This document shows positions 4,820 to 54,300 of a DNA stretch of 64,000 bases, in pieces. A program made the position numbers and the translations under genes. The stretch covers positions 806,001 to 870,000 of the forward strand of contig JARGXX010000002.1 of the NCBI GenBank assembly GCA_030374765.1, given 5' to 3'. Source of the stretch: Agarophyton chilense (taxonomy: Eukaryota; Rhodophyta; Florideophyceae; Gracilariales; Gracilariaceae). Within the stretch, counting starts at the first letter, position 1, and each line of letters begins with the position of its first letter. The notes beneath the pieces are model-generated. The model did no database searches, was not told the DNA's origin, and saw only the letters and a list, made by a program, of their open reading frames with translations.

Positions 4820-7111
4820 ATGCATTCTTTTGTGGAGGTCATTGGCGCTGGAATCGAGGACACACCTTCGTGTGTCCAATTGTTCTTTGAAGATAGCCGC
4901 TATCTTTTCGAATGTGGGGATGGTTCGCAACGCCTATTCGCCGAATACGGCGTAAAGTTTGGACGACTAAAGGGGATATACTTGACTTCTGTCACAGCGC
5001 CGTCGGTTGGGGGGTTATTTGGGTTTATACTGACCGTTGCAGATGCCGGAAAGCGACAGCTCGATATCACTGCGCCTCAGGGCATATTGGGTTTAATTGA
5101 AGCTGCAAGAGGCTTTACGTACAGACCCACTCTTAGTTTGAAAATCAACGAGATTGACATCGAGTCCAAACCAGAAACTTTCCCAATCACTGTCGCGGAA
5201 GATGCGAATGTAACCATTCAAGCGGTTCCCATAACGAGTCGTCGGGACATGAAGATTGACACCGGATTTGGAGCTCACTGCGACGCTGTGACATACATTT
5301 GTCGCGTACGAGATGTACGAGGAAAGTTTAATCCCGCGCGCGCATTAGAGCTGGGTGTGAGGAAAGGGCGAAGTTTTGGAACGCTGCAAAAGGGTGGCAG
5401 CGTTATGACAGAAGACGGCAGGGTGGTCACTTCGGCAGAAGTGATGTCTCCCAAAACCCCGGGTCCGTTGTTTGTTATTGTTTCATGTCCAAGTGTTCAC
5501 CACATTCGTAGTGTGGTGTCATGTGCCGCACTGCGCCCAAATGAACTTGATCTGTACGACGACGTTGCGGGTTCTGAGCAAAGGATCAAACGCGTTTGTC
5601 TGCTTGTTCATCTGGCACAGAGAGACGTTCTCTACAACTCGGAATACCGAGAGTGGTGTGACTCGTTTGGGAAGGACGTTGGGCACATTCCACTACACTC
5701 GTCAGTTAGTCCTCGAGGATCTGCATTCATCACACATAACGAGGACCTTGCGCTGCTGCACTACACGCTAGATGATGAGCTTTTTTGTTTGCCTCCTAAT
5801 TCTGTAGATCCGGGCTCCCCGAAAACGTTGGAAGATGCCCGACAGCTCATGGAAAACAAACAGAGAGAGGGGCAAAGTGTTCTCAGTGAATATTCGACCG
5901 AAATAGGGAGAGGTTTGGAAAAAGAAGTATATGGTGATCGCCTTGGAAAATGGATGGTAGCTGAGTGCAAGCTACGATATATTCTTTCGCCCAAGGCAGT
6001 ATGTGGGCCAGACAACACAAATGTGCGTGCTCGCTTTGTAGAAAGAAAGAGCGGCCATCCGAAGAGACGGTGGAGGGAAACATGGTCGCCGTATGCAGGG
6101 GAACCCGTACCGGGCGGCCCGGAGGGAGAGACGCCGGGCTACATATCACGTCTGAGCTGTGGTTCCACGGCAGTGCGCTTCTTTGGAACCGGAGCATGTT
6201 TGCCGGGCAAACACAGGAATGTGTCGTCAACGATGATCGATTTGTTTGGACGCGGTGGAATCCTGCTTGATTGCGGCGAGGGCACATGGGGCCAAATGGT
6301 GCGTCAGTTTGGATTGGAGCGTGCCCAACGCACCCTATGTGCAATGAGGGTCATCTTCATATCACACATGCACGCCGATCACCATCTCGGGCTGATAAGT
6401 CTGCTACACGAACGAAATGTTGCCATGACCAAACACGAAGAGCTGCGAAACGGGCCGCAGCTGGTAATCGTCGGGCCGCCGTATTTGGAACATTGGTTGA
6501 GGACTTTTCAGGCGGCCGCCAAAGTGCCAATGCTGGAGCAGGTGCGCCAAGCGCAACAGTGCTTTCGGTTTTTCGACGCGGGCACTTTGACGGATCCGCA
6601 GGCGCCGGAGACGAAGATTTTTTCGGACACGTTTGGTTTTGAGCTGGGCTGCGTGGCCGTCATTCACTGCGCGTCTTCGTACGGCGTGGTGGTGAAGGAC
6701 TGCGTGTACGGGTGGAAGATTGTGTACTCCGGAGATACGCGACCGTGTGAGGCACTGGCCGAGGCCGGCAAAATGGCGACGTTGGCGATTCACGAAGCGA
6801 CGCTGGAGGATGGCATGGAGGTCGAGGCCAAGGAAAAGCGACATTGCACGATGAGTGAAGCGCTGGACGTGTGTGCGAATCGAATGAAAGCGTGGCGAAC
6901 GATTCTGACGCACTTTTCGCAACGCTATCCGAGAATTCCCAGGCTTGACGATGCGATGCTAGCAAAGTTGTACCATTGTAGAGCGACAGTTGCGTTTGAC
7001 CTGATGAGCGTGGATCTCACACGGCTGCAAGATCTGCCGCGGATCACGGCTGCGATGCGCGACACTTTCCCCAACGAAGTGGCGGTGGAAGGGATATCAA
7101 CGCTAGAGTAA
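4820..7111 (+). CDS. ELAC2: Long-form tRNase Z (RNase Z, ELAC2-type)
   Basis: A 763-residue intron-free protein with two metallo-beta-lactamase-type halves, as in eukaryotic long-form RNase Z. The N-terminal half (about 1-330) keeps the fold but lacks the catalytic histidine cluster, as expected for the family. The C-terminal half starts near the VRFFGTGACLPGKHRN segment and has the catalytic HMHADHH motif at about 516-522, then YSGDTRPC, an AIHEATLEDGM segment, a KRHCTMSEA motif and a THFSQRYPR segment, which supply the remaining zinc ligands. The enzyme cuts the 3' trailer from pre-tRNAs in nucleus and organelles. The ATG at 4820 begins directly with a short beta strand (HSFVEVIGAG); no obvious organelle presequence is visible, so targeting is unclear. 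It ends 74 bp from the convergent MED30-like gene. Confidence 0.96.
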   Translation: MHSFVEVIGAGIEDTPSCVQLFFEDSRYLFECGDGSQRLFAEYGVKFGRLKGIYLTSVTAPSVGGLFGFILTVADAGKRQLDITAPQGILGLIEAARGFTYRPTLSLKINEIDIESKPETFPITVAEDANVTIQAVPITSRRDMKIDTGFGAHCDAVTYICRVRDVRGKFNPARALELGVRKGRSFGTLQKGGSVMTEDGRVVTSAEVMSPKTPGPLFVIVSCPSVHHIRSVVSCAALRPNELDLYDDVAGSEQRIKRVCLLVHLAQRDVLYNSEYREWCDSFGKDVGHIPLHSSVSPRGSAFITHNEDLALLHYTLDDELFCLPPNSVDPGSPKTLEDARQLMENKQREGQSVLSEYSTEIGRGLEKEVYGDRLGKWMVAECKLRYILSPKAVCGPDNTNVRARFVERKSGHPKRRWRETWSPYAGEPVPGGPEGETPGYISRLSCGSTAVRFFGTGACLPGKHRNVSSTMIDLFGRGGILLDCGEGTWGQMVRQFGLERAQRTLCAMRVIFISHMHADHHLGLISLLHERNVAMTKHEELRNGPQLVIVGPPYLEHWLRTFQAAAKVPMLEQVRQAQQCFRFFDAGTLTDPQAPETKIFSDTFGFELGCVAVIHCASSYGVVVKDCVYGWKIVYSGDTRPCEALAEAGKMATLAIHEATLEDGMEVEAKEKRHCTMSEALDVCANRMKAWRTILTHFSQRYPRIPRLDDAMLAKLYHCRATVAFDLMSVDLTRLQDLPRITAAMRDTFPNEVAVEGISTLE

Positions 7112-11294: not shown

Positions 11295-14200
11295 TCAATC
11301 CCTCCCCAGCTCTTCTCTTAATCGCGTCACCTCCACCTCTAGGTCCGCTAGGTACACCAGCAGCTCGTTGTGCTCCTCCTCAAGTGGCTGCAATCCATTT
11401 CCACCTCCGCTCTCCCTCAACTCCCGAATCTCTCCCTTTGCCTTCGCCAGCTCCGTCAAAACTTCCTCTCCGCGCTGTTCAGCGCCTTCAGCCCGAGCCC
11501 TCAATGTCTCCAGGTCCGCGTCCCGCTGTCGCAAGCTGCTCTTCACCCCAAACAGCTCATCAGAGACAGAAGCCAGTTCTGCCAACTCTCGTTTGGCCAT
11601 TGCCAGACACGTCTCCAGCGCTGCACACCGTTGCGCCTTCTCCCGAATAGCCTCCTCCGAAGTGCTGAACTTTGACAGGTGCTCCTCTCTGATTTCGCGG
11701 ATCCGCCGCTCAAGTTCTTCAGATCTGCGCTGCGATGACTCTCGTGCAGCCTCAGCGCTCTTCTTTTCCCTCATACTCTGCTGTAGTTGCTCCTGCATAC
11801 TGCCAATAGTTTCCTTGTTTTCCTTCACTTCTTTGCTCATCTTCGAGTTCTCATCTGCTGTTTTTCGCTGTAATTCCAATGTCTCTCTTAAACTCCTCTC
11901 AACTTCTTCAAAGTTTACCATCGAGTTCTCCAGCTCGCTCGCCTGCTTCTCCAAATCAGACACCCATTCACGGAGGTCTTTGTTGTCCTGTTCAAACTCA
12001 TCTCTGTTTGCTTCTGCCTTTGCCAAAGTCTTGCGAAGCTCTCTTATAGTGCCCTCCTGCATGCCCTTGGTAGAAAGCAACCCTCGCAGGTCTTCCTCTT
12101 TCACACCAATCGTAGCCTCAAGCTCCCGAATGCTTCTCTTATTCTCTGAGACTGTCTCCTCCAGACACATGATTCGTTCGCGACTCTCAGCAACAGACTG
12201 CCTTTCGTTTCCCAAATCCTCTCTAAGTCCTTTGCATGTGCTTTCCAACGACTCGATAGTCGAAAGAAAGTCTTCGTTCTCCCGTTCCAGAACCTCTTTG
12301 CATTCCATTTCTTCTTTAAGACTGGCTTGGAAACGTCTCACCTTCTCGCTGGTTTGCTTCACTTCTCCCTCGAGCATTTCCCTCTGCGCGCGAAGTGAAG
12401 TGATTATGGACACGTTCGAGCGGTTTTCCTTCTCAAATTTTTGCCTCGCTTGTTCTTCCTTTCGAAGCGCATCCTTCGTATTATCGAGCTCGGCACTGAC
12501 GCTGTCCAGGTTGCGTTGAAGTATTTCTCGTTGTGCTTTGCGCTTCTCAATTGTTCGAACAAGTTCATTCTTCTCCGTGTTGAGAGAGGAAACATCCTCT
12601 TCGTGCTTACGGTGTTCTTCCTCGCGTAAAGCTTTCAGCGAAGAATATTTTTCGAGTAGGCGACTGCTTGACTCCCTCTCGCTTTCCAGCTCCGACAATT
12701 TTCGCTCCAGATGCAGGTCGACATCTCGTTTTTCATCCACTAATTTGTCATAACTCACCTTCATCATTTGCTCCGAATCTCGCATCTTTCTTTCGACGAC
12801 CTGAAGCTCACGACTAATGCGATCTATTTCATCTTCGTATTGCTTGGCTTCGCTCTCCCGCTGCTCCTTAAAGTTAGCTCGTTCCTGCTCGAAAGCTGAT
12901 TTTGTTGCTTCCAACCCCGCTTCAAGGTCTTTGAGAGCACTCTGTAGTTCTGCCACCCTGAGTTTCCCGGCCCTTTCTTCTTCCTGCAGTTCTTGCACTT
13001 GATTCTCTGTGGTGTTTAGTGATAGTGTTAGCTTCAGTTCTGATTCCTCGAGTTCTTTAGTTCTTTCCTCAAGATGTTTTATGTTAGTATACGCTTGTTG
13101 TAGCTCTTCTTTACAGTCTTTTAGTTTCGTTTCTGCTTCTTCCAGCAGTTGCTCTTTTCGAAGAATTTTCGCTTGTAATGAATCCGATTCCTCCTCAAAT
13201 GAGCTCTTCAGCGATTGAATCTCTCCTTCCAAGTCCTCAATTGCTTCTTCTTTGCTCCGAACAACGTTTTTCAATGCCGTTTCGACTTCTACTCGTTCTT
13301 TCTGCTTTTTGTCTCTTTCTTCTCTGGTTTTCAGCTCTAAAGTCGATAGCTCGCTTCTTAAAGATTCTTCAGCAGATCTGGACAGCATAAGAAAGTTTTC
13401 AGATTCTTTTAAGCGACGTTCGATGCCTTTCACAGATTCATAAATCCCCATCATCAAATCCAGAGCCGATTCTGCTTCGTTCATGGACCGTGAGAGGGCG
13501 CATCTCAGGTTCTGAGCATCTGCATTTGCACAGTCCAGTTGCTGCGAGATTTCGACAGCCGGGTCAACTGCAGAAGACACCGCCGGAACATCAGACGAAA
13601 GATGGTCTGCATCGGATATTTCGGAAACGGTCGCACTTTTGACGACTCTATGTTTGTTGTTGTCTTCAGCCTGCTTCTTCAGATCGTCTATTAGGTGGCG
13701 AGCGTTCATCAGTTGTGCATGCATCGAAGTCTTGTCAGCAGAGATTTCGACGAGCAAACCTTGGGCAGCAATGAGTTCTAGGTTAGTTGCTGCAACGGTT
13801 CTTGCTGCATCTCGCAGAGCATCTTCAAGTTCAATTACCCGGTTGGCCGATATTTCAGATACTGAAGCGTCACTTTGGGGTTGAGCAGACGTCTCAGTGG
13901 TGGAGCCTGCAAAACGGGATTGAAGATCAGAGATGTGAGCATTGGCAGACACGTTCTCAGCCCTCAACTTTTCTTCAACTAATCTGGCGTTGTCGAGAGC
14001 CTGCTTCAGCTTGCTTTCACCATCAACAGTTTGTTGAAGATCATGAACCTTTGAGGCCATCTCAGTCAATTTCTTTTCGTAGTCCGAACATTTAGCTACT
14101 GCTTGCTCTCGCTCAGAGAGGATAGCATCCATGTCAACTTTCTTTTCAACATTGAACTTCAGATTTTCTTTGAGAAGCGAATTTTCTTCCAGGAGTTTTT

Positions 14201-17200
14201 CCTGGGCCACCCGCGTTGTGGCAAGCTCCCGCTTTAAACAATTCGATTCGCCTTGGTGCGAGGCATTCAACACGACGGTACTGACAACATTCTGAACCTG
14301 CTGAGCAATGAAACTGCGATGCAAAGCATCCTGTAGACGCCTGACAGTCTGCTCGTGTTCAACTACAATCTGGCGGCCAAACTCAATTTCTTTCGTCATT
14401 TCATTACTTTGTTTTTCGGACAGCTTGCAGGCTTGTACCAGAGTGGAAAGCTCTGCTGCTGTGTCGGCGCGTTTTCGTTCGCAGCAACTCAGCTCTTCTT
14501 CCAATCGCTGTACACGGGTTGCGTCTTCAGTGGAATGAGCTAATCTCTCAAGCTCAGTCTTTTTCTCTTCACAATCCTGTGCAAGTTGGTCTCTTTCCAT
14601 CTGCACTACTGATGATACAACTTCCACTTCGCTAACCTGTTTCCGTAGATCCGTGATTTCCCTAGCGGCGGTTGCAAGTTGATCTTTGGCCTCTCGCAAA
14701 GATTCCCTTAATACACTTATTTCATGCTCCATCGCATTCAGCTCCTTTGTTGCTTCTTCATTTCTGGATTGAGTTAATCCTGCGACGTCCCTAGATTGCA
14801 AGCTCGCGCGCTGCTCAGATTCCTCCAGTTCTTTTCTCAACGCAACAACCTCCAATGTGAGATTCCGTTTGGCCTCTTCTGCCTCGTTTTGTGAGAGCAT
14901 TTTCTCGTTCAGTTCATCAACTTCTTTCTGTAGTTCATCGCTTTTATGCTGAAACTCCATTACTGCTTTTTCGAGAGCTTCGGCCTTCGCTGCAATAGAA
15001 TCTCTGTCGCTGGCCTTGGCATGAAGAAGGCTTTCCTTATCCTTTTTATCTGCAATAGTTTCCTTCGCAAGACTTAACTCTTCTTCCAAAGCCCTAATCG
15101 TTTCCAGTAATCTTTCACTATCCTTTGTTTCCAATGTATCTTCCCTGACTATGTCCGTTAGTTTATTTTCGAGTGCTGTAACGCGAGATACCAGTTCTTG
15201 GTTGGTTTCCTCCAGTCTAGACTTCTCGTCCTCTATTTCAAACACCTGTCCAGACAGACGTATGCTCTGTTCAGTTCTTGACGCGAGTTCATCTTTCAAG
15301 ACGGCAGATTCATCCTCCGTTCGCCGCCGCCCTTCTTCAGCCTCAGTACACTGCTGTTGAAGTTCTTCGACTCGCGATCGCATCATATTCGACGTCTGGT
15401 TCTGCCTGTCAACAGTCTCATTTAACGATCGGACCTGACTTTCAAGACCTTGCACGCATTGGTTTAGACGATTTATCTCATAGAACTGTTGGTCCCTGAC
15501 AGATTCACTGGCTTGCGCACGCTTCTGCCACTCTGCAACAGCGTGCCGAGTGTCAACAAGCTCGGCATTCAGCTGTTCATTGGAGGTATGCACGAGACTA
15601 TATTCGTTTCTGAGTTGATCCAAAACCTGTGCTTGCTCAAAAGCCGGGGAATTTCTAATGTTACCTTTTTCCTGTTGAAGCTCTGCTTCGACATCTGCCA
15701 GCTTTCGACGAAGCACAACAACCTCTTGCTGCCTTGAAGCTGAAACCGCCGCTGCAGTTTCTCGGGATTCCTTCATTGTAAGAAGTCTTTCGGATCTTAG
15801 GTTCTCAATTTCAGCTTTCATCTCTTTGTGCAACTGCTCAACAGCAGAGAGAGAGGAGACCGCATCATTGCGTTCCATCTCGGTCATTCTCATTCGAGTT
15901 TCAAGTTCCGTAAAACTCCGTTGAAGCGAGTCTAGATCAGCTTGGCGAGCTCTCAAGGTCGCCTCAGCTACGTCTGCACGTCTTTGATTTTGGATGGCCT
16001 CAGCATATGGTGGAGCCACTCCCGATTTTAAAGCTTCAAGCTCATTTCTGAGAGATATCAGCTCAATCTCCCGATCTTTAACAACCGTGTCAAGTAGCAT
16101 TACACGGTGGGACATCTCTCCTTTCACACGAACCTCTTGCTCCATTGAGTTTTTCAAAAGATCGTATTGACCTCGTAATCGCTGGATTTCTCCAGAAAGC
16201 ACCTCGTTACTTTCTGATGGTGAATGCTCCACATTAGAGGATTGCTCTTCTTCTAATGTAGCATATGCCTCTGATAAAGCTGTGAAGTCCTTTTCCTTTT
16301 CTTCCAATAGAGATTTCAAGGACTCCCTCTCAGCCAACACTCTATCTTTTTCTTCTATTACATTTCGCATGTTTTCTGCGACTTTGGATGCCGAGACCTG
16401 ACTTGTTTTGGACTCCAGCTCGATCTGTGCCTCTTGTAATGCAGCTTTTAGGCTACTTATTTCTTGGCGGGACATGTTCAGAGATTCGTCTTGATTGCGA
16501 ATGAATTCCTTGTAAGAGTTCAAAACTTCGTCCCGAGCTGAGTCAGCTATGACAGCGTGTTCATCCGAATTAGTTGAATGTTCAGTATTGTGTCCGTTCA
16601 TAACTCTACTAGGGGTTGGTTGGGAAGACACGAGATCAAGAGCCCGAGCACCAATTCTTTCGTAGACATTTCCGACGACGTGAAGAATACCATCCCCGTA
16701 CCAGTTTTCATGTCCAAGATTCCCCGACGAAGACAAAAGCCCGGTCTTTTTCTCTAAGGTCAACAGACTCTCCACAAAATTCCATGGAGTCGCATACGCA
16801 TCTCCGGCTTTAAAAGATTTGGCAGCAATGAGGTCATCGAGACACGCAGTAAACTCTGCAACACCGACTCGATTGCGTATCACGTTCGCAACAGTTTCCC
16901 GTGGAATAACAGTGGATGGACCTCCACCCGATAGAAACCCGCTCTGACTCGTAGCATCCGAGGTGCCTTCGGTTGTAAGCCAACAAATGCCCAAAAGCAC
17001 GGCAGCCAATCCGCGAGTGTGAATTTCGGCAATATCTCCTCGGGTACCAGTCCTCTTGATAGTGTCGACAAGAAAAGGAAGATTCATTGCCGACGATAAG
17101 AATGCTGAGACAGCGGATGGACTTTCATAAAGCCACACACATGAAAGCGAGAAAAGAGAAATTCGCACTTCTGGCGGACCACGCTCGCGCTCCAGCTTAC

Positions 17201-18881
17201 CAATTGTTCGTAATACCTGAGACAAGAGGGAACTGCCATTCACATAACAACCCAGGAGACGCTCTTTGGCACCTTGAACGCGATGCACAACCCATGATAC
17301 AAGGGATGCGGCGTAGAACACACCTGCAGCATCCGCGATGTCTGGCCATCCCACCAAAGCCTCTTTAAGGAAGTCCGATATTAATTCCATGGAGTTGCCT
17401 GACGAAGCAAGCTCGCTTGCTGACGAGAGTGAATTAAGAGATAGATTTCTTCTCTCGTCGACGAAAGTAGTAGTCCCTGAGGAGCTAGTCAACGCGTTGA
17501 GGAGAATTGTGGAGGGAAGATCTAATCCCGGATCCACGACAAAAGAGTCGCGTAGCAAAGTATAAGCAGCGGCCCGAACCGCTGATGAATACTCTTTGAG
17601 CATTGTCTTTAGAGCAATAATCTGAGGACTGGTGGCCTGATCTCCACTCGCTACCGAATATGCTGAAGCATTGAACATCGTTCGAAATTCGTCAAGTCCG
17701 CGCACGAGCGTGGCTATGGTCTTCAGTGAAGTTAAGCGGATATCCAATCCAAGCTCAGAATTGGAATTAGATGATCGTCCTGAGAAACCAAGATTCAGTA
17801 GTGTCCGAAAGATATTAGAGGTAAACAAATCGTTTCGCAAACGAATACTTTCTTCGTCAGTCCCGTCTACCATGTTAGAGATGCATTGCAAGGATAGTAA
17901 CAAATTTCTCTCTGCTTGTCGCTCAAACGCAGTTTTCCCCCCAGCTGACGCGGTACTTCCAGAGGATGTCTCGGTCTCGTTTGTAATAAGACCAGTATCA
18001 ATGGCGGAGCGCTGGAGAATACTGACAAGTTTCGGAATGCACGCAGTATCCCGTAAGAAGGTCTTTGTTGTCGAAGTACCAGCCAGAAGATTATGAACAA
18101 CGAGCAGTATGTCATGCACGAAAATAGCGGTTTCAACATTCTCTTTGTCAAGTACGTCACCTGAAAAATCGTCCATCGTAACCTCAGCTGACAAGGTCTC
18201 AAGAAGAGCGAAAAGTTTCTCCAGCACTCCAGCAAAAGCGACAATCTTACATATTTCGGCGGACTTGACGCAAAGCGTGGAAAGAAGCAAAACTGCGTTG
18301 ACGCGAATGTGTCTATCCGGGTCATCCAGCATATCACACACGCGGGGAACTCCTTGCGAGGATGATAGAAGCGCAGACTGAAGTGTTTCACGCGAATTGG
18401 CTGCCATTGCAGTCAGAAGTTCTATCGTGCCAAACTTGATGTAAAAGTCATTCTTTTCAAGCTGCTGCAAGACCAGGGATACGGCATCTGGCAAAGCTAG
18501 GAAGGCGTCAACGTTCTGTTTAGCAATCTCAGCACTAGAGGACTCAAATTTACCCTGTTCATCTTGCGAGAGCTTTTGCGGTATGGAAGAAGGTTCCAAA
18601 GAGCCGCAAAGAGTGATAAGTAAGTCGAGGGCAACTTTGATCGTCTCGTCGTATTCATTGTCCTGTTCCAAAACAGCGTATATAATTTTGATAGCAAGAG
18701 AGCCGGCCTGGCTCTGTGCTTGAGGAGACTGCTTGGCGGCTTCGTTTAGCTGTTGAATGGCTGTGCGACGGTCAACAGGTAAAACCGACGTCTTTATCCG
18801 GTCAACCAAACGAGGGACAACGCTCTGCGCGTCTGATTCGCCACCGGCTACGTAGCGGAGCGCGCCGGAGAGGTAGTTCAT
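11295..18881 (-). CDS. USO1: USO1/p115-like vesicle-tethering golgin, very long
   Basis: Starting at the ATG at 18881 (MNYLSGALRYVAGG), the protein has 2528 residues in one exon. The first 700 or so residues are helical armadillo-like repeats and begin like p115/Uso1 (MN.L.G......, then a DRR.A...L segment and a VLEQDNEYDETIKVALDLL segment). From about residue 770 to the end there is almost unbroken heptad-rich, Glu/Lys/Leu-rich coiled coil, finishing with an acidic stretch. p115/Uso1 tethers ER-derived vesicles to the Golgi and supports SNARE assembly. Human p115 has about 960 residues and yeast Uso1 about 1790, so this one is unusually long, all of the excess in the coiled coil. A GTG further upstream keeps the frame open, but the ATG matches the family start. 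Coiled coils mimic each other, so the assignment rests on the head. Confidence 0.85.
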   Translation of the reverse strand: MNYLSGALRYVAGGESDAQSVVPRLVDRIKTSVLPVDRRTAIQQLNEAAKQSPQAQSQAGSLAIKIIYAVLEQDNEYDETIKVALDLLITLCGSLEPSSIPQKLSQDEQGKFESSSAEIAKQNVDAFLALPDAVSLVLQQLEKNDFYIKFGTIELLTAMAANSRETLQSALLSSSQGVPRVCDMLDDPDRHIRVNAVLLLSTLCVKSAEICKIVAFAGVLEKLFALLETLSAEVTMDDFSGDVLDKENVETAIFVHDILLVVHNLLAGTSTTKTFLRDTACIPKLVSILQRSAIDTGLITNETETSSGSTASAGGKTAFERQAERNLLLSLQCISNMVDGTDEESIRLRNDLFTSNIFRTLLNLGFSGRSSNSNSELGLDIRLTSLKTIATLVRGLDEFRTMFNASAYSVASGDQATSPQIIALKTMLKEYSSAVRAAAYTLLRDSFVVDPGLDLPSTILLNALTSSSGTTTFVDERRNLSLNSLSSASELASSGNSMELISDFLKEALVGWPDIADAAGVFYAASLVSWVVHRVQGAKERLLGCYVNGSSLLSQVLRTIGKLERERGPPEVRISLFSLSCVWLYESPSAVSAFLSSAMNLPFLVDTIKRTGTRGDIAEIHTRGLAAVLLGICWLTTEGTSDATSQSGFLSGGGPSTVIPRETVANVIRNRVGVAEFTACLDDLIAAKSFKAGDAYATPWNFVESLLTLEKKTGLLSSSGNLGHENWYGDGILHVVGNVYERIGARALDLVSSQPTPSRVMNGHNTEHSTNSDEHAVIADSARDEVLNSYKEFIRNQDESLNMSRQEISSLKAALQEAQIELESKTSQVSASKVAENMRNVIEEKDRVLAERESLKSLLEEKEKDFTALSEAYATLEEEQSSNVEHSPSESNEVLSGEIQRLRGQYDLLKNSMEQEVRVKGEMSHRVMLLDTVVKDREIELISLRNELEALKSGVAPPYAEAIQNQRRADVAEATLRARQADLDSLQRSFTELETRMRMTEMERNDAVSSLSAVEQLHKEMKAEIENLRSERLLTMKESRETAAAVSASRQQEVVVLRRKLADVEAELQQEKGNIRNSPAFEQAQVLDQLRNEYSLVHTSNEQLNAELVDTRHAVAEWQKRAQASESVRDQQFYEINRLNQCVQGLESQVRSLNETVDRQNQTSNMMRSRVEELQQQCTEAEEGRRRTEDESAVLKDELASRTEQSIRLSGQVFEIEDEKSRLEETNQELVSRVTALENKLTDIVREDTLETKDSERLLETIRALEEELSLAKETIADKKDKESLLHAKASDRDSIAAKAEALEKAVMEFQHKSDELQKEVDELNEKMLSQNEAEEAKRNLTLEVVALRKELEESEQRASLQSRDVAGLTQSRNEEATKELNAMEHEISVLRESLREAKDQLATAAREITDLRKQVSEVEVVSSVVQMERDQLAQDCEEKKTELERLAHSTEDATRVQRLEEELSCCERKRADTAAELSTLVQACKLSEKQSNEMTKEIEFGRQIVVEHEQTVRRLQDALHRSFIAQQVQNVVSTVVLNASHQGESNCLKRELATTRVAQEKLLEENSLLKENLKFNVEKKVDMDAILSEREQAVAKCSDYEKKLTEMASKVHDLQQTVDGESKLKQALDNARLVEEKLRAENVSANAHISDLQSRFAGSTTETSAQPQSDASVSEISANRVIELEDALRDAARTVAATNLELIAAQGLLVEISADKTSMHAQLMNARHLIDDLKKQAEDNNKHRVVKSATVSEISDADHLSSDVPAVSSAVDPAVEISQQLDCANADAQNLRCALSRSMNEAESALDLMMGIYESVKGIERRLKESENFLMLSRSAEESLRSELSTLELKTREERDKKQKERVEVETALKNVVRSKEEAIEDLEGEIQSLKSSFEEESDSLQAKILRKEQLLEEAETKLKDCKEELQQAYTNIKHLEERTKELEESELKLTLSLNTTENQVQELQEEERAGKLRVAELQSALKDLEAGLEATKSAFEQERANFKEQRESEAKQYEDEIDRISRELQVVERKMRDSEQMMKVSYDKLVDEKRDVDLHLERKLSELESERESSSRLLEKYSSLKALREEEHRKHEEDVSSLNTEKNELVRTIEKRKAQREILQRNLDSVSAELDNTKDALRKEEQARQKFEKENRSNVSIITSLRAQREMLEGEVKQTSEKVRRFQASLKEEMECKEVLERENEDFLSTIESLESTCKGLREDLGNERQSVAESRERIMCLEETVSENKRSIRELEATIGVKEEDLRGLLSTKGMQEGTIRELRKTLAKAEANRDEFEQDNKDLREWVSDLEKQASELENSMVNFEEVERSLRETLELQRKTADENSKMSKEVKENKETIGSMQEQLQQSMREKKSAEAARESSQRRSEELERRIREIREEHLSKFSTSEEAIREKAQRCAALETCLAMAKRELAELASVSDELFGVKSSLRQRDADLETLRARAEGAEQRGEEVLTELAKAKGEIRELRESGGGNGLQPLEEEHNELLVYLADLEVEVTRLREELGRD

Positions 18882-19560
18882 CGCATGAAAAGCCGAAACC
18901 CCAGCGGAGGGGCTCACTGACCGTTTGGTCACAGCTCGGCGGGCGACAAAGACGCGGGAGAGAGGGCTGACGGCAGAAGGAATGAGTTTTTAGATGTTTA
19001 GCGTACAGAGGGCGACCGTAGACTGCTCATGATTGGCCTCTACCCAGTTTAGTCCACACAAGGAATCGCTGTAGTTCCGCGTTGCCTCGGCAGTCCAAAG
19101 CCCGGTCGTTGGCTGTCCTCGTGGCCACGTAATACACGTTTCACAATGGTAGTCCCTCACATATTTAGCCCATTACAGGAGATACCAAAGGTAGCAATGC
19201 TTCCCCGCTTAGTTGTTCACGACCTACCGACAACGGAAGATTCACCACCTCAGCAGGTGCTTCTTCTCTCCACAGTTCGGTGTTTACACGCCGACTTCGT
19301 GAGAAGATTCTTCTTGCGAGGTTTTGCCTCGAACCTTCCGAAAAGCTAACTAGAAAAATCTCTTTTGGCCTTGGGCACCTCGCACCCGAACGACCCGAAC
19401 TGGCCTATCAAATTACATTTTCGTATGGTTTCATAACACAGGAACCCATTTCAACACGAATGTAGCACGCAACTGTACACCGCTCGCAAGCACAAATGAG
19501 CGTGATATGCCATCCAATTTCTTTCCCCCTACGATAAAATGATTACCGAATGCAGCCTCT
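18882..19560. other. Spacer between USO1 start and the DUF5060 gene end
   Basis: This 679-bp stretch must hold the USO1 promoter and the 3' end of the next minus-strand gene. Short open frames on the plus strand carry no recognisable features. Confidence 0.5.
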
Positions 19561-36844: not shown

Positions 36845-36854
36845 ATAGTATCAT
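36845..36854. repeat. Left target-site duplication of the MULE
   Basis: ATAGTATCAT directly precedes the left TIR and is repeated directly after the right TIR. Confidence 0.85.
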
Positions 36855-37142
36855 GGCAAAAGGCCAAAATACACGACGTCTGGTATGTATGAAATAGACT
36901 AGATTTAGACCAATTAAAATTCTGGCCGCATTTCAGATACCGTACAATGCACCGTGGCCCCCTACTCGGAGTGCGCTCTCTGAGCTCGCATGGCGCTCTT
37001 TGCGCATATGCGTATCAGGCCAATCACACATCGTCCACATCGTCCCACATCGTCCTCGCTCTCTCCTCGTCCAATGCGCAAGCCGGCCGCAACTCGAACT
37101 CCTTCTCCCCAAATCACCTCGCGCCAAGTCCTCGCCATGTAG
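36855..37142 (+). repeat. Left terminal inverted repeat of the MULE (288 bp)
   Basis: Begins GGCAAAAGGCCAAAATACAC and pairs with the reverse complement of the right TIR. I count about three mismatches over 288 bases by eye. Both copies contain a direct CGTC.CACAT mini-repeat near the middle. Confidence 0.95.
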
Positions 37143-37952
37143 CTAAGAAAAAATGGCGCGACATTTGAACCTGAGAAAGGGTCGTTGAAGTTGAGAAGTA
37201 GTCGTGCGACTAGATGGTAGAGCAGTCATCCGTCCCTCCCAGGTTCAGTTCTTCTTTCACCATCATTTTAACGCACGTCTTGTGCGAGAAGTGAAGTTCG
37301 CTCTGCCGCCGTATCACGTCGCAGAAAAAGCAAATGTTAGGCATTTTGTAAGTGTTAATACTCATAATATTGAAAGTGTGCTTTTATATCTATTTAACTT
37401 ACGCTGTACACTTTAAATGATTCCTATTGCTTTGGCTTGCGCGTTTTGCGTTTTGTATCTCAAATTGGGAAGGTAGACTCATTGTTTGAGATTGAGAGCC
37501 ATAAACGGCAGTACGGTAGAACTTTGGAGCACCATGTCGTTGCTTTTTGGTAGTAAATCTCTTAATGAAGCTCTTCTTCCGTTTTGAAGTCCTAACAGAT
37601 GAAGAGATTGGTGGTAGGATTTTGGAGAAGTCGATTTGATCAACCGATGAGGAATCGAAGTGGTTGGTCTCCGCCGAAATGGTTAGACTCTCAGGTTCAT
37701 AATTGGTTATTAGAGACAGTGAAAAAATAGGACCATCGGAAATCATTTTCTTCACTGTTTCGAGTAGTCTATGTACTCTTTGAATTGCAACATTACCCAT
37801 GCCCGAAGCCAAGCGATGTATTTGGTCGTACATGGCCTTTCCATCTGAATAATGTCCGTAGTTCTGAAGCTCTACATCCGAATTCCGGTTACCAGATCAC
37901 TAATCTCTGCATTGTTGTCTTCCTCCCCATCAATGGGCAAGAGATTCGACTT

Positions 37953-38525
37953 TTACGCATCTGCATCAATCACACCGGCAGTTTGACGAATATTGGACAC
38001 TCTCGAAATGTTCCACTCCTCGGAGTTTCTCTTCCAGTACGTATCAAACAATTTATCGATTGCAATGTACTCCGAGAGTACTACCTTAAACCGCGGCTGA
38101 CGTAGAACCTCCTCCCCATACACCATCGCGCACCGAACTACATGACGGCATGGGAAACCCATCGTGATGCTGTTTCTACAGCTGCAGCGCACTTCCAGAT
38201 TTTTCTTCGCTTCTGTGCCACTGCCACTTACTCTGCAAGCGAAAAGCACAGTGATGGGTAGTACTGGCGATGAATTTGCAAAGGAATGTAAAGATGATGG
38301 CGGATTTGGTTGCGGAAAAGGTTTGGACGCTGCGGCATACTCTTTTCTCCACATTAACTCGAACTTCGCCACAGGGCCAACATAGCTCCCATCTTGTACC
38401 ACCTCACGCCATTCCACAGCTTCGATGTCTACTAATGTTGCGCTTAGAACTGCGTAGGACTTCGACGGAACTATACTGAGCTCTTTAAACTTCAAGAGCG
38501 CGTAACTGGTGTACTCGTTGATCAT
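37953..38525 (-). pseudogene. MULE transposase C-terminal part with SWIM zinc finger
   Basis: A 190-residue frame, shifted relative to the transposase core, carries VRCSCRNSITMGFPCRHVV, the CxC...CxH SWIM finger that closes MULE transposases. The stretch before it (YAVLSATLVDIEAVEWREVV) fits the usual linker. The offset from the core needs one frameshift or an unrecognised intron between 38656 and 38525. A further basic frame at 37833-37399 (with RTSKRKKSFIKRFTTKKQR) is probably the end of the same protein. Confidence 0.8.
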
Positions 38526-38655
38526 ATAGTTCAGAACTGGGGGGGAATAGGGAGTTGTGTGTCTTGGATTGATCTATGACGTGAGCTGAGCGGAGTAAGG
38601 GATCTGAGGTGTGAGGATCGCCTTTCAACTCTCCTTTTCCTTGTCAGTCGAAGCA

Positions 38656-40524
38656 TTAATAAGGGATCTTAGAGAAAGGCACCTTCTTCGACAGAATGTA
38701 TGCTCGGTAGCCAGAGTTAGATGCCTCCGTGTAGCCTGTATCCTGAAAAAGATACCTCTTCGGTACTGCTGCATCTCTGAAACAGACCACTAACATGTGC
38801 GGTTTGGAGTGGTAGAGGTACTTGAACCAAAGCGGAGGGTTGCGTCGGAAACCGTAAAAGTGTTGTCGTTCGAACGCTTCTCTTCTACACACAAAACTGG
38901 GCATACTTCTCGACCTTCTCAAGTTGAAGAGGTCTCGGGACATAACATCACACCATGTGCTCCTTCCAATCTTTCCACACCACGAAGTGACGTTCTTCAT
39001 CTGGTTTTGATTTAGATGCCACTCGTCAAGCGATATGAAAGATGTATCAAAGACCTTCTACGTCGCGTTAATACATGGGAAGCTCTGGTCCATAGTTATC
39101 ATTGCCGGAGAGAACAGGATAATGGACTTGAAACGCGAAAGTACCTGAACGAAATCCTCTTCTCTCTCTCCGGCAATGAAACCCATGAAGAACGTTAGCG
39201 TGAACCCATCATTTGACGTCCCATTGATGGTAAACAACGGATATCCAAACCGATTTGCTACAGCCTTACAATCCACCGAGATGCCTGGCACAATTCCGTA
39301 GTCCTCGTAGTCATTAAGCCACTCCTTGAAAGTCCAACACGCTGACATCATTCTTCCAGAGCTATCGCAATTGAAAAAGAACTTGTTACCAGGGTCTTCT
39401 TTGTTGAGGGCAACGAGTGCTTCACAAACTCTCATGCATTCCAAATCCTTTGGATTGCTTAGCGAGCCAGCGTACCCAAGCTGCTTTCGAGCCGCTATCG
39501 GATTGATTACTTTCTTATACTTGTCCTCCAAGTATCTCAAGGTATCTTGGAAGGACATTCTCAGAGTGTTGGTCATGTGAAGCGCTTCAGAGCGCATCTT
39601 CGGGGCCAGACGCTTCACCCCACAGCTTTCTTCAGGTTTATGATTGTGTCTAGCCCCTGTGAAGTCCGCAACGTAGGATTTATTGCCTCCGTCTTCGTCT
39701 GAACCGACTGTTTTGATAGTAAGAGAGAAATTGCATCGCCCAGGCTGCTTCGAGTTGTACTTCTCGCACTTCAGGAGACCCTTTTGTAGCACACGACGGT
39801 CTCCAGCCACTCCATTTGCTTCAGTTCTATTCCTGTCGCCTATGTAGATCGATGTCCTCGTATAGAGATAGTATCCCATTCAATCGGCGATGTGCTGCAC
39901 TTCTTTCATTACATCGTGGCCGGGGGCATCGAAAGAAAGGCTTTGAAAGCAAGCAATGACCGCCGACTTTAAGCATTCTTCAATATGCTCCTTGTCGTCT
40001 TCCACCTCGCCAGTCTTACTCTCAGCTATACTAACCTTCTCCATCTTTTCTTCTTGTCCATCCTTGACATGCACTTCTAATTCATCATCACATTCAGTGT
40101 CGTCATCGTCGTTGAGAGATTCTTCTACGTGGAAAATATCTAAAGGAATCTCTTCCTCGTCATCTAAAAACAGAAATCGATCGATCAGTTCTGAAGTTCT
40201 ATCATCCAGTCCAATCTCATCATGTATCCCTTCCGTACCACTCTTGCTCTCCATTCCCTCGTCTACAGCGGATCCAAGCATGCTGTTGGGTGTTGCCCTT
40301 GTACTAAACTGATAGTTTGAAGTAGAAGAGTAGGAAGAAGTGTGTACATACTCAATGCTATGTTTGGAGTAGTTCTTTGGTTCCCTGTCCGGGCTCGGTA
40401 TCCCCGGGGCTCCTGTTCCAGACAGTGGGGCTGCTAGACCACTCACGTCTCCTACGTCATTACCATTTACGCCTCGTAATTCATTACCAGTCACGTCTCC
40501 TACGTCGTTTCCTAAAGACAACAA
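38656..40524 (-). pseudogene. MULE transposase core, two in-frame stops
   Basis: One minus-strand frame runs from 40524 to 38656 and is broken only by TGA at 39880-39882 and TAG at 39058-39060. The part before the TGA is acidic with repeated ELRGVNGNDVGDV-like units at its start. The TGA falls at the beginning of a FAR1-like domain (MGYYLYTRTS..., LLKCEKYNSKQPGRCNFSL, and YVADFTGARHNHKP). Then follows the DDE core: VDCKAVANRFGYPLFTI with the first Asp, GFIAGEREEDFVQVLSRF, and MITMDQSFPCINA with the second Asp. The TAG follows directly, after which the frame has a conserved-looking WHL..NQMKNV segment. The transposase would cut at the TIR ends; this copy cannot make a full protein without readthrough. 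Confidence 0.85.
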
Positions 40525-40613
40525 GTCAATGACTCTTCTACCTCAGGTTGTGGAGACCTGTTCTGTTTCCCATTCACGTCTCCTACACGCTGGCACGAAG
40601 TACTATACTGGAG

Positions 40614-41867
40614 CTACTCTTCAGGAGTGGGAAACTGCTCAGCGCGGCGAAGAGAAGGGTTGTTCGTCGTTCTATTTGGCGTTGGGGACGTGAAAGGCTT
40701 GACTTTAAGTTTTGGCGCAATTGGCGGGCTTCTCCTGAAAACGTCTCCCTTTACCTCGCAACCCAGAATGTCGGACATAGAATCATCTTCATTCTTAGTA
40801 AACAGTTCATCATCTTCTTTCTTTGTAAACAGTTTTTCTTCTAACGCTTCCCAATCTATTGCTCTCCTGCTCGCGCCTCTAGAAAGCTCCTCCTTCCAAC
40901 TCTGATAGCGAGCTCTCAATGAGCTCTGAAGAGCTTGACAACGCTCCTTAATGACCTCATCAGCTACCTTGAGGGGTGTGTGGTTGTGTCGTAGATCTGC
41001 AGAAACGTACCATTTCAGACTTTTCCATCCCAAGCTGAAGTTAATGGTCGAAGGACACCGAGTGGGTGCTTTGCTCTTGGCACAACGAAGTCTCCCAGTA
41101 AAGAGACGATCGCTCTGCCTCATTTTCCTTCTTATCAATCGAAAATGGTGCATGACATACAAGAACCCATGCCTTGATGCTGTCGAGCACATGAAAGCAC
41201 TCATGTCGTCTACTTCGCATACGAATTTCAGTCCGGGACCACTAAGAGTTTTCTCTCCCACTCTTGATGCCACTGAAAGAGCCATCTCCTCATCTCGGTT
41301 ATCGTTTTCGTTCAAAGACCTTTGAACAGAGACGACTACGGCCTGATCAATAACATGATCAACTACGGAATGCACAATTGGGGAAGCGTCCAGAGAGTGT
41401 AGGCTGCGAGCAGATGTTCTGCCCATCACTTTATCAAGGACTTGATCCATAATTGAATGAACAACGTCAGAACTATCCAGAAACTTCACTATTCGAGTAG
41501 ACCTCCTTCGCAGGAGGGGAGACAAGCATGAATTGGAGACGTCAATCTTGCTCCGAACCTGTTCCTTAATGTCTCGCCGACATTGCGACGACCGCTCTTT
41601 CTCATTTCCCTCAATCATCTGCACAATCAAGTCCTTGAGTTGCTCATCGTCTTGCCTGCGCAACACAATATCGATGTCGGATGGTTTTTTCATCCCCTCC
41701 CTCTTCGCTACGTTGTCTACATCTTCATGATGATCGCGTCCCCGGAGAGGAGCTGCGGCGCTGTCTGAATATATCGCTGATACAGCTTGTGAGGGAGATT
41801 CAGTCGCCTTTCTCTTCGTCAGAATCATATCACCTCGTTCCCTAACAGGGCTGCGGATCTTCTTCAA
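40614..41867 (-). CDS. MULE ORF with FAR1/FLYWCH-like metal-binding domain
   Basis: This 417-residue frame has a basic and Glu-rich N-terminal half with two similar segments (SSDVVHSIMDQVLDKVM and ASPIVHSVVDHVIDQAV), an internal duplication. From about residue 215 there is a domain with FVCEVDDMSAFMCSTASRHG, RLRCAKSKAPTRCPSTINF, a WYVSADLRHNHTP ending, i.e. a C..C....W....HNH pattern as in FAR1/FLYWCH/WRKY-like zinc folds that begin MULE transposases. It probably binds element DNA. The start is uncertain because the frame is open back to the Ulp1 stop. The C-terminal part is acidic with a repeated LFTKxEDD motif. Confidence 0.65.
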   Translation of the reverse strand: MKKIRSPVRERGDMILTKRKATESPSQAVSAIYSDSAAAPLRGRDHHEDVDNVAKREGMKKPSDIDIVLRRQDDEQLKDLIVQMIEGNEKERSSQCRRDIKEQVRSKIDVSNSCLSPLLRRRSTRIVKFLDSSDVVHSIMDQVLDKVMGRTSARSLHSLDASPIVHSVVDHVIDQAVVVSVQRSLNENDNRDEEMALSVASRVGEKTLSGPGLKFVCEVDDMSAFMCSTASRHGFLYVMHHFRLIRRKMRQSDRLFTGRLRCAKSKAPTRCPSTINFSLGWKSLKWYVSADLRHNHTPLKVADEVIKERCQALQSSLRARYQSWKEELSRGASRRAIDWEALEEKLFTKKEDDELFTKNEDDSMSDILGCEVKGDVFRRSPPIAPKLKVKPFTSPTPNRTTNNPSLRRAEQFPTPEE

Positions 41868-41891
41868 GCGGGACTTTCCCTGCTCTCGAGT

Positions 41892-42640
41892 TCAATAGAT
41901 ATGACGACGGTGATTTAAGCGGTAGTCCTGCAGCATAGTCTCGGAAACTTCTTTTCCTTCGTAGAAGTCGTAGGCCATAAGAATGTGAACTATACGGCTT
42001 CTGATGGCCATCCACCTATAACGCTCAGATAAAGCAGGGCTGAAGCCGTGCGCAAAACTTCGACCTGGTGCCAACCCTCGATCTGCAGCAAATTCAGCCG
42101 CTGCGGATATCACATAACACCCACAGCTATGTCTATCTTTCTGCAGAGGGTACTGTTTTATGTCAAGCATAAAGTTCTTCTTCGACAGAACTGCAGAAAC
42201 CTCGCCATTCAGAATAGTATATTCAAACGCTCGCTTGAATAGAAGTAGAACTTCTCCGGGCATTTCCAGCGTAAACTGTCTCCGAAGAAAACTGTAGGCT
42301 TTTTCCTTTTCTTCGACCTACTTCCAGGCGACTTCTGTCCTACGAGAACCCCCCAATGCTGATTTGAGAGGTTCAAAGGGACTACTACAGTGTGAATGGC
42401 GCAGTTTGTGCCCGTAGCATTCCTTGAGAGCGATTTAGATAGCGGCTTCAGTATCAGTTCTACAATGTCTTTGGAAGTCATCCGTCCTGTCTCCATCCTG
42501 TTTGCGTAGCCTGTCAGAGATGTGCCTGTGTCACAGGGACAGATACAAACTCCTGGTTTGGGCTCCATGTCCATCAGAGCAGAAGTGATAAGATCACTGC
42601 ACAGGTAGGCGGTCTTGCTCGAACTATGAACAAAAGACAC
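41892..42640 (-). pseudogene. Ulp1-type (C48) cysteine protease of the MULE, frameshifted
   Basis: Two overlapping minus-strand frames (42640-42209 and 42263-41892) form one C48 protease domain with a frameshift near 42.2 kb. The first holds VVPLNLSNQHWGVLVGQ, with the catalytic His before Trp, and VFFGDSL with the catalytic Asp. The second holds LDIKQYPLQKDRHSCGCYV, with the Gln of the oxyanion hole and the catalytic Cys. Ulp1 proteases cut SUMO from proteins; the job of these copies in transposons is unknown. The frame ends in TGA at 41892-41894, after which the same frame stays open into the next ORF, so it may once have been a fusion. All catalytic residues are still visible. Confidence 0.85.
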
Positions 42641-43115
42641 AGGAATTGTTTCACGTTCCTCTGCTTCGACAATGTCATAGACGTGTCGGTGGACAACTGA
42701 AAACCGCAGCTTGGACGATGTTAACTGTAGTCTACCATACTTTTCCAGGTTCTTGTAAAACTCAATACATATTTTGGAAACACCTTCTTTTCCATGACTT
42801 CTACAAAATAATTCAAGAACATCTTCTATTTCACAGAAAATGAAAATGTTAGAACGGTTAGAATAAAAGGTTCAGAAACAGCCTGTTTTCGATATCTTAC
42901 CTTTTTTATCATGCATTTGTTTAGGAAGAAAAAGAGTTTTTGTAGTGTAGAATCGATATGAAACGGGTAACAAGGAATGAGAGGATTCAGTTCGTTCGAT
43001 ACGATACGGATTGGGGTGATGGGGAATACAATATTGAGCCGCACAGTGAGCTCAGTTTATTGAGCGCCAAAATTGCGCCAAAAGTTTTGAAATATGGCTG
43101 GAAAGTGGACGTCAT

Positions 43116-43403
43116 CTACATGACGAGGACTTGGCGCGAGATGATTTGGGGAGAAGGAGTTCGAGTTGCGGCCGGCTTGCGCATTGGACGAGGAGAGAGC
43201 GAGGACGATGTGGGACGATGTGGACGATGTGTGATTGGCCTGATACGCATATGCGCAAAGAGCGCCATGCGAGCTCAGAGAGCGCACTCCGAGTAGGGGG
43301 CCACGGTGCATTGTGCGGTATCTGAAATGCGGCCAGAATTTTAATTGGTCTAAATCTAGTCTATTTCATACATACCAGACGTCGTGTATTTTGGCCTTTT
43401 GCC
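43116..43403 (-). repeat. Right terminal inverted repeat of the MULE (288 bp)
   Basis: Reverse complement of the left TIR with about three differences, ending GGCCTTTTGCC at the element border. Confidence 0.95.
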
Positions 43404-43413
43404 ATAGTATCAT
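43404..43413. repeat. Right target-site duplication of the MULE
   Basis: ATAGTATCAT directly follows the right TIR and matches the left copy exactly. Confidence 0.85.
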
Positions 43414-51396: not shown

Positions 51397-54300
51397 ATGC
51401 AGCCTTGTCACTTCCCAAGGTGCACCTTCGAGGCAAAAGGTCATACCTCCCTTGTCCAACACCAGCGCCGGTGTCGCTACTGCACAACCCGCAACGCCTT
51501 CCTCGCCACCACCCCAAAAGATGGAACTCAATTCCCACCACGCACGAAGCGCCCACGCGTCCAGACCGCAGACACCTGCTCTGTTGGCATCTCCAACCGC
51601 CTTTCCAACATCGTTCCGCTGGTTGAAGAGGACAACTACCATTCGAGCCAGCTCGCTCTGGCCATACGCTCTGCAGACACCGCCCACATTCTCAACGCTT
51701 CTCTTCGCTCCCCTTCTCCCATCCCTCGCCCACTCGTGAAGCTCCATCCCATCGTCTCCTCCATCTCATTCATCGCCACCAAGCTCGGCAAATGCAAAGC
51801 CGACGAACTCATTACCCTCCTCAAGGACCCAAAATACTCTTAAGCACTCATTCAACAGGTTAACTCCGTCTCCCACTGCCTTTAACTTCATTCGAAACTA
51901 TTAGAGGACATTGTCGGCTCCATCGGCTTCAAATCCACACCTGTTCGTCAAAATCCCTCAAACATCACTGCAACTCTCTACCTCAAAAACCCCGTCGACG
52001 TCCTTCTCCAGCAACTTGGCTACGCCACTCGCGCTAACACCTTCTTCCACACCGTCAGAAAGTGTTCTCCAGATGGTTCTCCTGCACTCGCTCATCCCAT
52101 GGCTTCAAAACTCGGCAGTTGTGTTTATCCAGATCTCAAACATCACATCCTCTGCTCTCAAGACCCAGGTGTTATTTGGAACAACGCGGACATCACTGGC
52201 ATGGAATCTTTCATCGGCGTCATCCAGCTCTACTCGGACAAGTCGTCCACCTCTCTTAAAAGCTCCTCTATCACGTCCTACCCCCTTCACATCACCCTCC
52301 TCAACTTTTCAGACTCCTTCTGCTGCCATTGCATCTCCCGCAACTACACCCTCCTTGGCTACTTCCCCACCTCGTTCGACGCCCCTTCCTCCACATCCGA
52401 CGAGGACTCCATCGAAGTCCACCTTCTTCCTTCAGCCCTCAGCCGCACCACCCGAATGGAACTCACCCGAGAATCTCTACAAACCATCCTCGAACCCCTC
52501 GCTGCAGTCACCCTCAAGGGTTTCCCTTTCCGTGATGAAGATCAGGTCATCCGACAGTGCCACCCAGTCATCGCAAACTATGCTGCAGAAATTCCAGAAG
52601 CAAAAGACATCCTAACCTTCCTACACGGCACAAACCCATCCAAGCCGTGCCACCGATGCCTAACACCTCGCTCCGACCTCAACATCCACCTCACTTCCGT
52701 ATCCCCTCGAACTATTTTCCACACCCGTCACACCAGATCCGCACACGACGCCCTTCTCAAGGATGCCAACGACGCCAAACAACTTTGCCGACCGCGCGTA
52801 GCAAGAATTCTCAAAGACCAAGCAGCATCTCTCCTCCGCACAAACTCCCTCTCCGCGCACCACTCCTTCTTCGAAACATACCCTCTTCTTAATATATCTC
52901 CACTCTTCACCCCTTACCCTATCTTCTCCTTTGAACCTCTTCACAATTTCCATCTGGGTATCTCCAAGCTCGTCAAACTGGAAACCATCAAACGCTTGAA
53001 GTCCGACAGCCTCTTCACCACTCTCGCGTCCTCCAACGGCTCCTACAAATCCTTTAAATCCATCCGAAGCTCCCTTCTCAACCACGCCAACAACATCCTC
53101 GCTGATATCGAAGCCAACTTCCCCGCACCCGGACTGCACATCGACTTTTCCACACCCGAAAAGGGGACATACCGAAACGGGTTCTTTACCTTAGACGGCA
53201 TCAAAGGCATGCTCGAGGCAAAAGACTACCGCGCTGTCGACATGGTCTTCCCCTTCATAGGTGCCTTCTTCGACCGTTGTTGCGGTGAAGTTCACACAGC
53301 TGTAGGACAACGCTTGGAGCGGAGACACCACGAAGATGTTCGGGATCTTCCTCTCTTGAGAGACACGCCTCAGGCGGAGGAGACGCGTCCCAGCGGAGCA
53401 CAGAAACAGAGCCACTCTGGAAAGGCCCGACGGAGTCGGGTGTAAGACCGAGGCCAATCCGGCGGGATATACCTAGAGTGTTTAGGTGAGCACGGCACAG
53501 TCCGGGGTGTGGCCAATCCTAGGCGGAGCGGTACCACGGCGATTGTAGGAAAAAGAGCGAAGAAACACTCTTATGAGGTGGACGAGCGGGGTGAATGGGG
53601 CGGCCACTCACGAGAGCCAAAAAAGAGAACAAGAAGAAATGGGGGCGAAACCCTATACAAGGGCGAGACTACGACAAGTGTCGGCGATTAAATATGAACC
53701 TACGGTGGTGGTAGCACTCTGGTCGACAGAGGGGTGGATGAACTAACGTGCAACGGGCGCTAACGCAGTATGCGGTTATGACGCGCCGAAGGCGAAAAGT
53801 TCAGAGCCAAGACTCCCTCCTTGGTCTCTCCCAAGAGGGTGTTTACTGGGGAGCAGTGCTCAACCTCCTAAGTAGTGTGGCGCGCGGCCCCTGACAGTGG
53901 GCGCGTGCCCGAAAAATATACACTTAATAGCGATAGCGTAGCGTAATAAATACTGATAATTACTAAATAATACTAACCATTAGATAGAATCCGGGCCACG
54001 TGTGGCACGCATCGCACTCTAGCATCGGCATCCGTGCAGTGCACCTGTTTCACCAGTGTGCACCTTCGGTCCTAAACGGCCGTTGGCACGCAATAGCGGT
54101 ATAGCTTGTCATAGACCAAGCTAGTCCTCAAGCGAGCGAAATCTCAAGTCCTGGGAAGAAACCCCCTTGAAGGGCATTGTCCTTCAACAGCTCCCATCAC
54201 CTCCATCTTCACAGCATACGCAGACCTCTTTACCGCCGCACTCCACCACAACACCACCTCAAAATGGAGAGACCAACAACTTTGCGCCCTCCAGGAACTA

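Follow-up and report, generated by a model that had tools for sequence, protein, structure and literature searches.

A MULE family of the red alga Agarophyton chilense with a predicted Ulp1-type protease and a DDE transposase in one reading frame

The window, that is, the whole 64,000-nt stretch of Agarophyton chilense DNA analysed here, contains one copy of a Mutator-like (MULE) family of cut-and-paste transposons that is present in multiple copies in its genome. This copy has decayed to a relic, although both its ends are intact, and the protease and transposase domains that it carries in pieces form a single frame in sister copies. We regard it as an even call that intact members encode one protein of ~1700–1800 aa, ordered Ulp1-Zn-Zn-DDE-SWIM, whose protease strips SUMO at the element ends. 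The observed part of this explanation comprises the ends, the target-site duplications (TSDs), the single frame of the sisters, a long-standing and conserved association between the two domains, and a protease dN below dS.

The window element occupies 36855–43403 (6549 bp), with its coding strand on the minus strand (Table 1). A sequence-only reading had described complete ends with 288-bp terminal inverted repeats (TIRs) and a 10-bp TSD, and these were confirmed at base level, the TSD being exact on both sides. The span of 36845–43413 given there has the ends correct but takes in the TSDs, which lie outside the element proper. The left TIR had at least 40 matches in the genome searched (79.76 Mb, 135 contigs; 40 of 77 candidates scored), so its occurrence is not due to chance. 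Alignment to the intact sister copy L010 shows several frame breaks in the coding region of the window copy, together with six in-frame stops. Its protease motifs can still be read, with His in NQHWG, Asp in GDSL and Gln-x5-Cys in QKDxHSCGC. The Pfam scan took in seven window ORFs and recognized MULE in one and SWIM in one; the remaining scanned ORFs gave no Pfam match or weak sub-threshold matches to unrelated families.

Table 1. Features of the MULE copy in the window (window coordinates)
Feature	Position	Strand	Basis or remark
Left target-site duplication ATAGTATCAT	36845..36854		Exact match to 43404–43413
Left 288-bp TIR, begins GGCAAAAGGCC	36855..37142	+	285/288 identical to right TIR
Broken remnant of single Ulp1-Zn-Zn-DDE-SWIM frame	37398..42871	-	Alignment to L010 1824-codon frame
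SWIM zinc finger	38136..38216	-	PF04434, 20.1 bits, cut-off 19.6
MULE DDE transposase core	38674..39603	-	PF10551, E 7.8e-4 in window
Second CCHH zinc-fold-like segment, directly before DDE core	39604..39873	-	Motif
First CCHH zinc-fold-like segment	40833..41192	-	FAR1/FLYWCH-like by motif only
Ulp1/C48 domain, split by frame break in window copy	41883..42574	-	Motifs, alignment
Predicted 75-nt intron GTAAG...TAG	42826..42900	-	Sequence only
Predicted exon 1 (ATG, MHDKK...)	42901..42916	-	ATG, donor and 75-nt spacing common to window, L009–L012 and L024
Right 288-bp TIR	43116..43403	-	3 mismatches vs left TIR
Right target-site duplication ATAGTATCAT	43404..43413		Identical to left duplication

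Elsewhere in the window, a Plavaka-type transposase was found at 51886–53442 on the plus strand (PF18759, E 1.1e-18), with at least 123 matches in the genome, and a 2564-codon open frame without a Pfam match at 0.001 lies at 11298–18989 on the minus strand. LHC had nine genome matches. Four LHC proteins were retrieved, and the two of them compared with PDB best matched chains of 7y5e/7y7a, which we take to be a red-algal megacomplex; a red-algal origin is plausible on these matches.

Both ends were found in 13 of the 20 TIR-matched stretches examined, and one end in the other 7. Together with the window copy and two elements of a second subfamily (L029 and L030), the 13 fetched copies make 16 complete elements. 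Exact TSDs of 8–10 bp flank 14 of these (9 bp in nine elements, 10 bp in four and 8 bp in one), with the left edge of L015, L016 and L018 moved by 1–2 bases to the full TIR and one edge of L029 shifted by one base by the scan; L014 and L028 have 10-bp TSDs with 1 and 2 mismatches, respectively. The assignment to the MULE superfamily, which could have failed on the TSDs of other TIR copies, was thus not refuted. The superfamily features present are a TSD of 8–11 bp, long TIRs, a PF10551 DDE domain and a SWIM finger C-terminal to it. In protein scans, PF10551 (cut-off 27.6 bits) scored 28.7 in L029 (E 1.8e-6), and below the cut-off 25.2 in L010 (E 2.3e-5) and 20.3 in the window copy; in a six-frame genome search it gave 40 matches, with the L010–L012 sites (30.9 bits) and the window site (30.8) over the cut-off. 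The SWIM finger passed its cut-off in the window (E 4.5e-4) and in L029 (19.9 bits) and fell below it in L010 (16.8). Four copies, L009–L012, differ from one another at 3–10 positions per 6546 bp (5 of 6 pairs compared) and occupy different TSDs, which therefore indicates recent movement. One further copy, L018 (C95:2084212-2088115), is a 3.9-kb deletion derivative that has kept both ends and the TSD and lost the protease half.

An uninterrupted frame of 1824 codons opens upstream of the protease in L010, L011 and L012 and extends beyond the SWIM finger, taking in the Ulp1 (C48) protease, two CCHH zinc-fold-like segments and the DDE core. L029 has a stop-free frame of 1680 codons with the same domain order, in which Met is the second codon. 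A single stop interrupts L009, in the C-terminal part of the frame, and the frame is broken in the other 10 of the 14 copies that share the TIR family, window included. Protease, zinc fold, DDE core and SWIM finger had been listed as separate ORFs in the sequence-only reading; because intact sister copies have a single frame, the window's ORFs are instead the debris of one gene. Separate genes for protease and transposase were ruled out by the same frames in L010–L012 and L029.

Spliced at the predicted 75-nt intron, L010 would encode 1814 aa from Met to stop. The intron sites match in the window copy, L009–L012 and L024 and are altered or unmatched in the rest of 12 copies. A donor-like GTAAGT also overlaps the L010 stop codon, which together with the predicted 5' intron suggests that splicing may be in use. 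Such signals would suit a fusion at the DNA level only, with splicing or internal starts yielding a separate protease and transposase; against it, L010–L012 and L029 lack any stop between the domains, and we consider it improbable.

Identity between L010 and L029 was 49% in the protease and 64% in the DDE core, 31% and 44% in the first and second zinc segments, 26% in the linker after the protease and 35% in the other linker. Both proteins keep C, C and HxH in the first zinc fold and C, C and HNH in the second, and Pfam gave no support for these segments in the window, L010 or L029 scans. Both also carry Asp in SVDC, Asp in MDQS and Glu in EASN, which, from MULE families, we take to be the DDE residues. 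The duplicated VxHSxxDxVxDxxV segment, put forward earlier as a mark of a separate lineage, is present in L010; it does not define the lineage because L029 has not kept it.

One long frame that opens with the protease and continues through long, weakly conserved linkers would also be expected of a polyprotein processor, which would cut itself and the first zinc fold off the transposase in the manner of same-clan viral proteases. In the two proteins compared, the single GG of L010 lies in the second zinc-fold segment and that of L029 elsewhere, and matches to [MLI]xGxG do not coincide. Self-processing becomes less likely because L010 and L029 share no diglycine or adenain-like site, and we rate it as unlikely, somewhat above the DNA-level fusion.

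Both second-subfamily elements examined contain, downstream of the ORF, a 94-bp inverted copy of their own protease-coding segment (L029:1530-1623 with 6105-6198; L030:4990-5083 with 414-507; 97–98% identical). A transcript reaching this copy could fold back on the protease.

The description of the protease as a C48 enzyme with visible His, Asp, Gln and Cys stands as far as the motifs go; neither window fragment of the protease matched Pfam C48, and L010 and L029 gave no match at E < 1. The homologue L031, a deep lineage 28% identical to L010 (tblastn E 1.8e-32), passes the C48 cut-off (27.3 vs 20.7 bits), and the HWG (H), DS and Q-x5-C motifs align across L010, L029 and L031. Among six aligned copies H, D and Q are invariant and Cys is replaced by Ser in one (L015). 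Across the family, protease residues are lost in several copies, with Cys to Ser in L013, L015 and L028 and loss of Asp in L023. A profile of the six copies matched five PDB sequences at E ≤ 10 (three of XopD, Ulp1 and RickCE; best E 0.0062), all of them C48 relatives, which supports C48 identity. With the whole L029 protein as query, PDB gave no match at E up to 1. When the protease alignment was used in one scan for relatives in viral contigs, 20 stretches fit a pattern and none was confirmed. We treat the domain as a predicted SUMO-type protease of the Ulp1/C48 family, with a predicted activity and substrate.

Of 21 Pfam C48 hits in the genome, 18 are not among the listed matches of the MULE protease query. 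These 18 include a 985-codon frame in three equal-scoring copies (L040:2725-5679, at C116:25872; C121:19603; C1:18701), all within ~26 kb of a contig start, and a hit with a 759-codon frame at L007:1027-3303. Among the three L040 ORFs scanned, C48 was the sole Pfam match, the two ORFs beside the C48 frame giving none. A tie of these hits to Plavaka transposons was considered and rejected, since a by-eye comparison of positions gave no neighbours.

The protease query gave at least 151 genome matches (150 parsed), merged to 115 loci among the matches listed, and the DDE query at least 105, merged to 94 loci. An Ulp1 match lies within 6 kb upstream in 65 of the 94 listed DDE loci, on the same strand in all 65, at a chance expectation of ~0.009 per DDE locus. 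The sole downstream match among those listed is the inverted fragment in L030. With the Pfam MULE hits as the base, a protease lies within 6 kb upstream in 28 of 40. Identities of protease and DDE core to L010 rise together (rho 0.94, n = 65 listed pairs, which are not independent), and the protease is found across lineages down to ~29% identity with the order unchanged. The protease–transposase pairing is old. An old association, or else repeated capture, had been proposed from the window, and a check had been suggested on whether related copies lack Ulp1; Ulp1 is present in the relatives, which supports an old association over a one-off insertion, and we reject a recent one-off capture. The protease-upstream order read in the window likewise holds in L010–L012 and L029.

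The 29 listed DDE loci without Ulp1 within 6 kb may reflect truncation, nested insertion or true absence. Twelve have a same-strand Ulp1 match 8–25 kb upstream and 17 have none within 25 kb; conversely, 49 of the 115 listed protease loci lack a DDE match within 6 kb. Two unpaired loci were examined, L038 and L039. L039 (C68:923367), one of the twelve, is related to L029 but truncated, and the 6 kb fetched gave no protease match. Among the 17, C95:2086037 is the deletion copy L018, and L038 is another.

L038 carries an uninterrupted 897-codon MULE transposase of the Ulp1-MULE lineage (L038:293-2983; G000:C128:1104793-1107483, minus strand). Neither TIRs nor a protease were found in the 6.5 kb fetched, no close copy exists (identity drops to 44% in the next best long match), and two catalytic residues have been changed, the first Asp (SVDC to SIEC) and the Glu (TEASN to TDISS). 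Judged by these features, L038 is a possible candidate for a domesticated, protease-free transposase.

Selection was estimated from copies compared with L010 (Table 2). Protease dN/dS ranged from 0.25 to 0.60; it was below linker 331–560 in all nine comparisons and below linker 681–1000 in seven, lying above the latter in L014 and L024. Relative to the DDE core it was lower in four comparisons and higher in five, with the widest gaps in L013 and L028. Fisher tests of dN < dS, on back-calculated sites in L016, L017 and L028, gave p = 3e-4, 0.003 and 2e-10 for the protease and 9e-5, 0.003 and 1e-37 for the DDE core. The linkers gave 0.22 and 0.10 in L016; the one linker tested in L017 gave 0.04 and is thus also below neutrality.

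Table 2. dN/dS of four regions in copies compared with L010 (comparisons not independent; 9 of 11 usable, L009 being too close and L018 having no protease region)
Copy	Protease	DDE	Linker 331–560	Linker 681–1000
Window	0.25	0.37	0.66	0.71
L013	0.53	0.25	0.67	0.58
L014	0.60	0.44	0.95	0.23
L015	0.28	0.41	0.59	1.16
L016	0.32	0.31	0.76	0.69
L017	0.41	0.42	0.59	0.68
L019	0.35	0.31	1.49	0.58
L024	0.59	0.67	0.65	0.35
L028	0.34	0.11	0.42	0.46

These ratios bear on the reading that the element recently captured a host ULP gene as its protease and has no use for it. MULEs often capture gene fragments, according to the accessible parts of PMC2528002 and PMC13317346. Against such a capture stand the dN/dS values in all nine comparisons, the depth of the lineages that share the protease in the same order, and the absence of the genome's five top-scoring Pfam C48 loci, taken as host ULPs, from the 150 parsed protease-query matches. 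We give this reading almost no credence.

Ulp1-bearing MULEs have already been described in plants, hydra and lancelet in the accessible parts of PMC2528002, PMC2836005 and PMC13317346; the present family differs from them in combining a protease-first order within one ORF with long TIRs. It resembles Kaonashi or KI-MULEs (KIU-bearing VANDAL) as a MULE with an Ulp1-type protease domain (PMC2528002, PMC13317346, as excerpted). In the Arabidopsis KI-MULEs, as the available texts of PMC2528002 and PMC13317346 have it, the element is non-TIR and ULP forms a separate gene that points the opposite way to mudrA, whereas here the TIRs are 288 bp long and the protease is N-terminal in the transposase frame. 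Neither the non-TIR structure nor the reverse ULP gene that mark Kaonashi/KI-MULEs was found in the window element or in L010–L012. Melon, rice and grapevine also have ULP1-bearing MULEs, presumably of the CUMULE type. The accessible parts of PMC2528002 give both orientations for the melon and rice ULP MULEs, with TIR-MULEs bearing ULP also in melon, so that direct orientation and TIRs occur there as here; the grapevine elements differ from our family in that their ULP-like sequences follow the transposase ORF on its downstream side. It is by that description that the three are set apart, and a same-frame case is possible in van Leeuwen 2007. The statement that the alga has the same combination as land plants therefore holds for a MULE with an Ulp1-type protease and is otherwise too strong, as TIRs and orientation vary among the plant elements (PMC2528002, in part).

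In the available portion of PMC2836005, hydra and lancelet Mutators share with our family a transposase linked to Ulp1, and a legend mentions Ulp1 in 'Mutator TPases'; Ginger1 shares a transposase–Ulp1 fusion and differs in a C-terminal Ulp1 and an integrase-type DDE domain. Ulp1 and OTU proteases occur in several unrelated transposons, where their role is given as unknown in the parts available (PMC2836005, PMC13317346). Among red algae, Dupeyron et al. 2019 list two MULE-Cc groups, 36 (Jittery sub-group) and 38, with one ORF, SWIM and TIRs of 192–640 bp; group 38 has a 9-bp TSD and group 36 carries inserts of various kinds, potentially host derived (PMC6446971, in part). By these table features, both groups agree with our family in one ORF, SWIM and long TIRs, and group 38 also in TSD. 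The main text of that paper contains no word beginning Ulp1, protease or peptidase. None of the literature matches listed, a set that excludes supplements and most subscription papers, describes Ulp1-MULEs from red algae.

Under the explanation that we favour, the zinc-fold-like segments, probable DNA-binding folds, would bind the TIRs, and the protease, in the same chain, would thereby be delivered to the element ends. There it may remove SUMO or a related modifier from host chromatin, silencing or repair proteins or from the transposase, and this deSUMOylation would favour transposition or escape from silencing. The covalent fusion predicted from intact copies equally suits a protease acting in cis only, which would strip SUMO or ubiquitin from the transposase and so stabilise it, leaving host silencing and repair proteins unaffected; the known deconjugation chemistry of C48 proteases also fits. 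We hold cis-only action to be a minority reading, though one with a real chance.

The old pairing of protease and transposase hints that the element comes equipped to counter a host control system. More tentatively, and with somewhat less confidence than the main explanation, the transposase itself may be a SUMO protease in an ancient algal MULE lineage, carried by its DNA-binding folds to its own ends to strip off SUMO-dependent silencing or repair signals. It would be an anti-silencing device of separate origin from plant VANC/KIU, with the transposase since domesticated by the host without its protease at L038. With the protease predicted to lie in the transposase polypeptide, dN below dS and near-identical, recently moved copies at hand, its role should be testable in one construct.
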